Assembly (NCBI RefSeq): GCF_000385335.1
Contig: NZ_ARWA01000001.1
Location: 3,426,001 to 3,490,000 of the forward strand
Source: Methyloferula stellata AR4
GTDB lineage: Bacteria > Pseudomonadota > Alphaproteobacteria > Rhizobiales > Beijerinckiaceae
Length of the DNA stretch: 64,000 nucleotides
Direction of reading: 5' to 3'
The notes beneath the pieces were generated by a model, which was not told where the DNA came from, searched no databases, and saw nothing but the letters and a program-made list of their open reading frames with translations. Both the position numbers and the translations under genes were made by a program. Position 1 is the stretch's first letter; the number at the start of each line of letters is the position of its first letter. Shown here one piece after another: positions 2,389-5,207 of this stretch.

Positions 2389-3336
2389 TTACGGAGCGCG
2401 TCCCCCACCTTCCGTCTTCAGCCACGCCGCGCCGCAGGCCTTGGCGAGATCACGCACGCGCAGGATGTAGCTCTGGCGCTCCGTCACCGAGATGACTCCC
2501 CGCGCGTCGAGCAGGTTGAAAATATGCGAGGCCTTGATGCATTGATCATAGGCCGGCAACACCATCAAATGCGTCTTGCCTTTGTCGCCCTTCATCAGGA
2601 GCGAACGGCATTCGGCCTCGGCATCCTTGAAGTGCTGGAATAAGGTCTCGACATTCGCGGCCTCGAAATTATGCCGCGAATATTCCTGCTCGGCCTGTTT
2701 GAACACGTCGCCGTAGCTGACGCGCGCGTCGCCCTCGCAGCCGTTGAAGTTGATGTCGAATATATTCTCGACGCCCTGCACATACATGGCGAGGCGTTCG
2801 AGCCCATAGGTGAGTTCGCCCGACACGGGCGCGCATTCGATGCCCGCGACCTGCTGGAAGTAAGTGAATTGCGAAACCTCCATGCCGTCGCACCAGCATT
2901 CCCAGCCGAGCCCCCAGGCGCCGAGCGTCGGGCTTTCCCAATCGTCTTCGACGAAGCGGATGTCGTGCAACCCCAGGTCGATGCCGATCGCTTTCAGCGA
3001 GGCGAGATAAAGATCCTGCAGATTATCCGGCGACGGCTTCAAGATGACCTGAAACTGATAATAATGCTGAAGACGGTTCGGGTTCTCGCCATAGCGCCCG
3101 TCCTTCGGCCGCCGCGACGGCTGCACATAGGCGGCGCGCCAGGGCTTGGGGCCGAGCGAGCGCAAGGTCGTCGCGGGATGAAAGGTCCCCGCCCCCACTT
3201 CCATGTCATAGGGCTGCAGGATGACGCAGCCTTGTGCCGCCCAAAAGGTTTGCAGGGTCAGGATCAGACCTTGGAAAGACCGTGTCGGGTCGAGAGAGCC
3301 TTGAGACGCCAAAGGCGCGGCAACGGATGTGGACAT
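2389..3336 (-). CDS. glyQ: Glycyl-tRNA synthetase alpha subunit
   Basis: A 315-residue protein. It has the GlyQ core: [19 protein letters not shown] near the N-terminus, GAGTFHPAT, and [20 protein letters not shown]. It joins glycine to tRNA-Gly as the catalytic alpha subunit with GlyS. The ATG at 3336-3334 ([11 protein letters not shown]) is chosen because it gives the normal family length. The frame stays open upstream for 60 more codons, but that stretch is the two hairpin repeats at 3410-3555 and is not expected to be translated. Confidence 0.95.
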
Positions 3337-3409
3337 AGATGATCCTGATTCCAACAGACCGGGCGATGGTGCTTTTGGCACGGCGCCCGGCGAAGCGCGG
3401 CAACCTAAA

Positions 3410-3455
3410 GCATCGGACCGAAAAGTGCGAAGCGGTTTTCGGACCAATCCGATGC
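3410..3455. repeat. Short REP-like hairpin, family 3
   Basis: Inverted repeat with arms GCATCGGA and TCCGATGC around CCGAAAAGTG...GGTTTTCGG. It shares the layout GCAT...GAAAAGT-loop-ACTTTTC...ATGC (or close to it) with hairpins at 3513, 11694, 17713 and 55821. It lies upstream of glyQ. Confidence 0.8.
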
Positions 3456-3512
3456 GATTAAAAAGACCTAAGAACGCCGGACTGATTCGACACCAACGTC
3501 CGGTATTTTGGA

Positions 3513-3555
3513 GCATGACCCCAAAAAGTTGCAGACTTTTTGGGTAGGATCATGC
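3513..3555. repeat. Short REP-like hairpin, family 3
   Basis: Inverted repeat with arms GCATGACCCCAAAAAGT and ACTTTTTGGGTAGGATCATGC around a short loop. It is the second hairpin of this family within 150 bp upstream of glyQ and is intergenic. Confidence 0.8.
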
Positions 3556-3833
3556 GGCGATCATCCTCTAAGCCGCGTTCGGTTCGATTGAAAGCAAACA
3601 TTTTGCAGTAGCGAACGGGCCTTTATTTCAACCGTAACGACGCTTGAGCGACATTGGAAAGGTTAATCGGGCTCCTCCTCTTCATGGTGATGACATAAAG
3701 CTTGGTTCTGCTAATCTCCGCTAGCTGGTCTTCCAGGATGAATACCCTAAATGGCTCTTGGGAGGATTGGGCTCCGCTCGACAATCCCAACCTGGAAACG
3801 AGAGCAAAGGCCATTAGGCCGGAGGAGTGAGAC

Positions 3834-4061
3834 ATGAATTTGAGTCTTAAAGTCGTTTTAACTACGAGTACCCTTCTTGGCACAGCCTTTGGCCTGGTGA
3901 GCCTCGCCAATGCGGCTCCTGCCGGTCTGACCCAAGCTGCCCCCGCCGTACAAGCTGTCGAACAGTCGGCCGGTGAGACGCCGAAGATCGAAAAGACCTG
4001 GTGGCATCGTTGGCATCGCTGGCACCGCTATCACTATTGGCATCGCTGGCACCGCTGGTGA
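3834..4061 (+). CDS. Tiny secreted protein with Trp-His-Arg repeat tail
   Basis: A 75-residue protein. ATG at 3834 is preceded by the strong ribosome site GGAGGAGTGAGAC. Residues 1-28 form a signal peptide ending in LANA|AP. A short Ala/Pro/Gln linker follows, and the last 20 residues are made almost only of Trp, His, Arg and Tyr, with repeated WHR units (WHRWHRWHR and WHRWHRW). The tail is strongly basic, aromatic and rich in histidine, so metal, heme or anionic-polymer binding is possible, but this is inference. The gene stands alone and is followed by a clean terminator. I do not recognise a named family. Confidence 0.8.
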   Translation: MNLSLKVVLTTSTLLGTAFGLVSLANAAPAGLTQAAPAVQAVEQSAGETPKIEKTWWHRWHRWHRYHYWHRWHRW

Positions 4062-4097: not shown

Positions 4098-4122
4098 GGC
4101 CGGTTCACGAACCGGCCTTTTT
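4098..4122 (+). terminator. Intrinsic terminator after the WHR-tail gene
   Basis: GGCCGGTT and AACCGGCC arms with a very short loop, followed directly by TTTTT. It lies 37 bp after the stop codon at 4061. Confidence 0.85.
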
Positions 4123-4133
4123 CATGCAGCCTC

Positions 4134-4200
4134 GGTTCTGTTTTCGACGCGTTTTCTGCACGCGAACCGGTCTCCACTTCGCTCGAAAACGCTTTGGTTC
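4134..4200. repeat. Intergenic repeat of the GTTTTCGAGCGAAGTGG type
   Basis: On the minus strand it reads AAAGCGTTTTCGAGCGAAGT, then GGAGACCGGTTCGCGTG, then AGAAAACGCGTCGAAAAC. From memory, sequences of this form recur between genes in many Rhizobiales genomes. It touches the stop codon of the methyltransferase gene that ends at 4199. Confidence 0.6.
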
Positions 4201-4990
4201 ACCAGTCGATCAGCGCCTCGCCGCGATGGATCGCATCGGCCGGCGGCGTGAAGCGACCCTGGTCTTGCAGCACCAGGGCCGGTGCCAAGGCAAAAGGCGC
4301 CCGGCTGCCTTTCTTGCCGCGCAGAAGGATACGATTGGCCGCTTTGTCCCGCTGCGGATGAATGGGCAAGACCGTCACGGCGCCGATCCGCTGACCGCAT
4401 GCTGTGAGGATCGCGGGCAAGGCTTCCGGCCTATGGATCATCAAAAACGTGCCGCCCGGCGCCAGCAGCGCGAGACAGGCTCTGATCCAACCGCTCAGCA
4501 TTTCGGCGCCGCCGTCCGGCATAAGATGGGCGCTGCGTTTTCCCGCATGCGGCGAAGCCCGTGCGCGGTCGGGATCCTCGAATGGCGGATTGGTGAGAAC
4601 GAGGCTGGCTTCGCTAGGCGCGAGACCGGCCGCGCGGCGGCTCGCGCCCGAGAAAATATCGGCTTCCCGGACGACGCCCCGTCCCGCCAAGCCGTTGAGT
4701 GCCAGATTATCCTTGGCGAGCCTTGCGACGACGGGATCATTCTCGATAAGGCCAAGGCTGACCGCCGGACAGCGCAGCGCAAGGATCAGCCCGGCCGTCC
4801 CGACACCCGCGCCGACGTCGAGTACGAGGCCCGCGGCATCCGGGGGCGCCGCCGCGGCGAGAAGCACCGCGTCCGTTCCGGCCCGATGGCCCTTGCGCGG
4901 CTGATAGAGGCTGAGCCGGCCGCCCAGAATGGCATCGCAACTGACCTCGGCATCATGGCTTGCTGCGAGGTCTGGCAATGGTTCAGCCAC
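4199..4990 (-). CDS. TrmN6-like SAM-dependent adenine N6-methyltransferase
   Basis: A 263-residue Rossmann methyltransferase. The SAM-binding motif VLDVGAGVGTAGLIL lies near residue 55, and the catalytic NPPF tetrad (LVLTNPPFED) near residue 135 marks N6-adenine or glutamine methyltransferases. QPRKGHRAGTDAVLLA near the N-terminus is typical of tRNA1(Val) adenine-37 N6-methyltransferase relatives. The start is taken as GTG at 4990 (VAEPLPDL), which overlaps the end of the DUF2007 gene by 8 bp. The open frame extends further upstream, but only through that neighbour. The RNA substrate cannot be read from sequence. Confidence 0.82.
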   Translation of the reverse strand: MAEPLPDLAASHDAEVSCDAILGGRLSLYQPRKGHRAGTDAVLLAAAAPPDAAGLVLDVGAGVGTAGLILALRCPAVSLGLIENDPVVARLAKDNLALNGLAGRGVVREADIFSGASRRAAGLAPSEASLVLTNPPFEDPDRARASPHAGKRSAHLMPDGGAEMLSGWIRACLALLAPGGTFLMIHRPEALPAILTACGQRIGAVTVLPIHPQRDKAANRILLRGKKGSRAPFALAPALVLQDQGRFTPPADAIHRGEALIDW

Positions 4991-5207
4991 GCCGCAATTC
5001 CATGGCGAGGCCCGCCTCTTCGAGCAAGCTGCGCGCCTCTTTTTCGAGGTCCTCATGCACGAGAACCCGGCGCGGCATGAAGCCTGTCGATCCTTCGAGC
5101 GCGCTCATGAAGGCGTCGGCAATGAAAATATCGATGCCTTCATCGGCAAGGATCGCCTCGACCAGAGAGATCAATACCAGATCGTTGGTCCGCAGAAGTT
5201 CGACCAT
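4983..5207 (-). CDS. DUF2007-family small protein
   Basis: A 74-residue protein starting MVELLRTNDLVLISLVEAIL, with the GFMPRRVLVHEDLEKEARSLL segment expected of DUF2007 (a putative signal-transducing family with a PII-like fold). ATG at 5207 has a good ribosome site (GAGGGTGGA). The open frame reaches further upstream to 5357, but the family length supports this start. It overlaps the downstream methyltransferase gene, implying a two-gene operon. It is divergent from the polyprenyl synthase gene. Function unknown. Confidence 0.8.
   Translation of the reverse strand: MVELLRTNDLVLISLVEAILADEGIDIFIADAFMSALEGSTGFMPRRVLVHEDLEKEARSLLEEAGLAMELRRG

Follow-up and report, generated by a model that had tools for sequence, protein, structure and literature searches.

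A family of putatively exported mini-proteins with lysine-free, aromatic-cationic tails at a conserved locus in Beijerinckiaceae

BA14K-like proteins (PF07886) are exported and carry a signal peptide, an APLAG-type start, a short linker, a VEK-like motif and a basic, aromatic stretch, followed by a glycine-rich segment and, at the C-terminus, a Cys-bearing PF07886 domain of 30 residues. In HxsA proteins (TIGR03979), a signal peptide is followed by a tail of His-Xaa-Ser repeats. Antimicrobial peptides rich in Trp, Arg and His make up a third point of comparison, and antimicrobial peptides that depend on pH have been described as a class (PMC5198042). The gene analysed here resembles each of these in part. 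It lies on the forward strand of our window, a stretch of 64,000 nucleotides from Methyloferula stellata AR4, as an open reading frame of 75 codons at 3834-4061, the very limits given in the first-pass annotation. The 75-residue product reads MNLSLKVVLTTSTLLGTAFGLVSLANA (signal peptide), APAGLTQAAPAVQAVEQSAGETPKIEKT (linker) and WWHRWHRWHRYHYWHRWHRW (tail), and the locus has the following features.

2389-3336, minus strand: glyQ, glycyl-tRNA synthetase alpha subunit (PF02091, E 2e-144)
3676-3833, plus strand: leader and promoter region with the ribosome site (GGAGGAG, 3822-3828), unusually conserved in the congener
3834-3914, plus strand: signal peptide, residues 1-27 (Lys in the n-region, hydrophobic core, AxA/AP; read by eye)
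3915-3998, plus strand: Ala/Pro-rich linker, residues 28-55, the start of the mature protein (from alignment)
3999-4058, plus strand: tail, residues 56-75 (from composition, the congener and all profile matches)
4098-4122, plus strand: terminator-like hairpin GGCCGGTTCACGAACCGGCC followed by TTTTT, kept in the congener
4199-5056, minus strand: small-domain methyltransferase, the constant syntenic partner (PF05175, E 3.2e-10)

The signal peptide, short linker and 20-residue tail of Trp, His, Arg and Tyr are all present as first described. Signal peptidase I probably cuts at ANA/AP, A27 and P29 being invariant in 26 aligned relatives, and we infer export via Sec. The linker ends in a motif of the family, (V/I)EK(A/T), visible in the alignment. 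The tail is composed of 7 W, 6 H, 5 R and 2 Y and nothing else, for which the chance in a random 20-mer is about 1e-18 if average residue frequencies are assumed. The DNA pattern TGGCAYNNNTGGCAY has five matches in the 4.24-Mb genome, three of which fall inside this one gene's tail, and the WHR tail is therefore not a genome-wide feature. For the mature protein, the computed charge is about +4 at pH 7 and +10 at pH 5, with a pI of 10.4. Two more small exported proteins with tails rich in W, H, R, Y and G are encoded elsewhere in the genome (C1:2048601-2048867, L019; C1:2497993-2498175, L010), the latter with an ortholog in the congener (L011).

The strong ribosome site reported earlier is borne out by GGAGGAG 6 nt upstream of the ATG, identical in the congener (G001, the one other genome of the genus compared), and GGAG-type sites stand ahead of most family members. 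The leader (3676-3833) is 92% identical to that of the congener, whereas identity is 82% in the sequence before it and 81% over the codons of the linker; of the first 33 coding bases, 32 agree. Because the leader and early codons are far more conserved than their flanks, the start region is under extra constraint; 3676-3866, the leader plus first 11 codons, is much more conserved between the two species than the remainder. The leader has a possible small hairpin at about 3760-3790, with a loop that varies between species, and its RNA fold is not clearly better than those of shuffled sequences (z -0.7 to -1.5). It has not been found outside the genus, and 3676-3833 contains no sigma-70 match. 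An Rfam search gave no family for the leader and merely weak matches to palindromic intergenic repeats upstream of glyQ (3405-3465 and 3512-3558); the first of these weakly resembles the Brucella CI408/CI27 sRNA models and is probably an interspersed Rhizobiales repeat. As for the clean terminator previously proposed, the hairpin and its T-run stand and are kept in the congener, but about one such site is expected by chance in a region of this size.

The congener ortholog is 80% identical, with dN 0.093, dS 0.453 and dN/dS 0.21. It retains a W/H/R-type tail, YRWHRWHRWHRWHRW, ending AWYRWHRWHRWHRWHRW, as expected by the first-pass annotation of a close relative. The tail codons of this pair differ by two synonymous and five non-synonymous changes, the tail being too short for a verdict. 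Judged by codon-level selection in the congener and other relatives, which speaks for translation, and by its conserved locus, the gene is real and coding, as had been proposed.

The adjacent genes are housekeeping genes, glyQ, the methyltransferase, DUF2007 and a polyprenyl synthase. ORFs in the neighbourhoods came from a crude script, and most of them were identified by eye. Scanning the neighbours of the methyltransferase showed that the same gap in several other genera holds a small ORF with a signal peptide and a W/H/Y/R-rich end. Eight such proteins were made into a profile (A1), cut two residues into the tail and otherwise excluding it, and searched against 199 Beijerinckiaceae genomes at E<=1.3e-4; weaker matches than this shade off into chance. 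Looking for short secreted relatives, as first advised, proved productive: the search returned 28 matches in 22 genomes, 7 of which had supplied the profile and 15 of which are independent of it. All 28 have a W/Y/H/R-rich or His-rich tail, short or diluted in two (G021, G069). A copy adjoins the same methyltransferase gene in 22 of 22 genomes. GlyQ is on the opposite flank in 18 of the 22; one contig ends too early, and in genus g9 an SppA-like gene, recognised by reading, takes its place. The synteny of the family seems positional.

Genera g64 and g9 have tandem second copies, and a single copy, in G208, sits at another site (L099). A g21 member is identical to a record from a metagenome-assembled genome (MAG) of Methylovirgula sp., also Beijerinckiaceae (L016, JARLIV010000232.1). 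Any match was seen in 20 of 43 Beijerinckiaceae genera and a convincing one in 5; with most genera lacking the family, its role is dispensable. Outside the family, an order-wide N-terminal profile reached E 5e-6 at best; of these weak matches a few are similarly built and several are clearly unrelated. A plasmid search gave no match. A contig from a MAG labelled Gammaproteobacteria (L017, PMHN01000278.1, 3664-5195) has a homolog adjoining glyQ. The first 30 or so residues of that glyQ product are Beijerinckiaceae-like and the remainder foreign-looking, as is glyS (37% identity to G195), so that either horizontal transfer by recombination within glyQ or a chimeric contig is indicated. In two g64 genomes an exported, His/Tyr/Gly-rich low-complexity protein is encoded between glyQ and glyS (L088 7710-8489 and L091 7663-8283).

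The repeat units of the tails differ by group: WHR in the own genus; WHH, HYW and CWHCWHR in g21; YYHPYYHR, RRYYH and WHR blocks in g64; and YYRPRYY in g9. Pooled from 31 members, the tail residues are 29% Y, 23% H, 22% R and 11% W, with no Lys among 1168 and about two Asp or Glu, and the use of Arg without Lys sets tail apart from linker (Fisher p 2e-27). Arg is absent from some members, those with WHH tails, and the tails of some tandem partners consist almost wholly of His. All 24 non-redundant members end in an aromatic residue (10.1 expected, p 6e-10), which in 18 of them is Trp (3.7 expected, p 1e-13). The expected counts follow from the composition of the individual tails; two partner peptides of almost pure His, with Met and Gly as last residues, are not among the 24, and the p-values are too small because the members share descent. 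Where tail codons can be aligned, changes are mainly synonymous, indicating purifying selection. The clearest case is that of G153b and G185 of g9, whose tails are under strong purifying selection and differ by 19 synonymous and 2 non-synonymous changes (dN 0.022, dS 1.72). At the level of the gene, four further diverged pairs of members have dN/dS of 0.06-0.14. The tails have in common not the WHR unit but an aromatic and Arg/His composition and an aromatic residue at the C-terminus. By these comparisons the tail is under selection, with composition and last residue constrained while order varies.

Our preferred reading, held tentatively, is that the product is a Sec-exported, envelope-associated, unstructured and sticky cationic-aromatic peptide. 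Cleavage at ANA/AP would leave a mature protein of some 48 residues, in which a flexible neutral arm precedes a Lys-free, acid-free tail where aromatic (W/Y) residues alternate with cationic or protonatable (R/H) ones. Such a tail could work as a multivalent "sticker" on anionic envelope polymers (lipid A/LPS phosphates, the membrane surface), where Arg and protonated His would form salt bridges, Trp and Tyr would insert at the interface, and His would make binding stronger at acid pH. Composition rather than order may be kept because such binding is multivalent. The property left in common is that of an exported chain, aromatic and cationic, free of Lys and closed by an aromatic residue, and this favours an envelope-binding peptide; that the tail binds the envelope is a reasonable guess. 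The similar front architecture of BA14K-type exported proteins lends support, as does the computed charge of the mature protein. The absence of an adjacent functional partner gene speaks against it, and so do the lack of the family in most genera, the Arg-free members and the nearly pure-His tandem partners. In the AlphaFold2 model (mean pLDDT 66 overall, pTM 0.26) residues 50-74 form a helix of moderate confidence, which would argue for some structure and against an unstructured sticker, though such models of low-complexity sequence are unreliable. A bolder and quite unlikely version would have the family as a new envelope component, a Lys-free Arg/His/aromatic sticker that must end in an aromatic residue and that either condenses pH-dependently on anionic envelope polymers or is read by outer-membrane quality control, while order and length drift.

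The first-pass annotation had suggested that the tail could bind metal ions or heme. A periplasmic binder or buffer of metal (Cu, Ni, Zn, lanthanide) or heme would suit the 6 His among 20 tail residues and the nearly pure-His tails of some small exported peptides encoded in tandem with a g64 homolog (HTHHHHYHHHHHHG, HCHKGKSHHHYHHHHEHH; L069, L063, L066). However, the orthologs that occupy this locus in g9 carry 0-1 His in the tail (YYYFVRRRYYRPRYYYRPRYY, for example), and these tails are nonetheless under purifying selection. Ligands are thus not conserved across orthologs, no metal transporter or regulator gene was seen by eye in the 13-kb neighbourhoods, and no Pfam or NCBIfam metal family was matched. 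As several g9 tails lack His, we reject the binding of metal or heme as a function common to the family, leaving this explanation unlikely overall; the WHR form on its own could bind metal.

Outer-membrane assembly or stress proteins of the SurA, BamA and DegS/DegP type recognise C-terminal aromatic residues. The C-terminal Trp and Ar-X-Ar pattern might accordingly be read by SurA, BamA or the PDZ domains of DegS/DegP, with the peptide as client, decoy or stress signal. We regard this as a serious rival, if one with a rather small chance: an aromatic end in 24 of 24 non-redundant members, 18 of them Trp, is far above what tail composition provides, but outer-membrane proteins are not Arg-rich and the family lacks the alternating beta-signal. 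An exported, pH-activated antimicrobial peptide directed at competitors in acid soils would account for the cationic-aromatic composition and the pH-dependent charge. The stable synteny of the gene, and the lack of any adjoining immunity gene, protease or dedicated exporter (by eye), make this improbable.

Cross-linking of W, H and Y by a radical SAM (SPASM) enzyme in a RiPP precursor, as in HxsA-like repeat proteins, is very improbable and was set aside: two relatives match TIGR03979 weakly (best E 3e-4), but PqqE (TIGR02109, E 4e-162) was the sole protein detected in a genome search covering the SPASM-domain type, and no maturase was seen by eye near any copy. A non-functional low-complexity ORF retained by chance, which the repeat-rich tail and patchy distribution might suggest, is largely refuted by dN/dS of 0.06-0.21 in five diverged pairs and by conservation of locus, ribosome site and last residue.

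Mini-proteins that are exported and end in an aromatic-cationic tail are a recurrent, mostly unannotated feature of Hyphomicrobiales genomes. The present family offers a clean handle on them, with a fixed locus, many species, and composition and C-terminal aromatic residue conserved over order; through it, a compositional sticker function in the bacterial envelope could be directly tested.

The protein had been said to belong to no described family. Consistent with this, sequence searches of the protein and its relatives against Pfam, NCBIfam and PDB gave nothing meaningful and no fitting model, and literature searches of titles and abstracts found no description of the family. Antimicrobial peptides rich in Trp, Arg and His are alike in composition and charge, whereas this family is stably syntenic, with no immunity or export genes seen. 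Compared with HxsA, its repeats are without Ser, no HxsB/C maturases occur among the SPASM proteins, and scores are far under the TIGR03979 cut-off of 121.65 bits (16.8 and 13.3 bits for relatives, no match for the M. stellata protein). The BA14K-like proteins, compared by alignment and reading alone at two loci (L120 and L008), go on to their PF07886 domain (E 5e-9 and 1e-9), whereas the present family stops at the aromatic-cationic stretch. Neither our protein nor 18 relatives match PF07886, and membership is rejected for want of that defining C-terminal domain. Taken together, the family is a new variant within a loose known kind, the small exported low-complexity proteins of Hyphomicrobiales. 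No name had been given to it before, and by the look of the N-terminal half the BA14K-like exported proteins are the described kind that comes closest.
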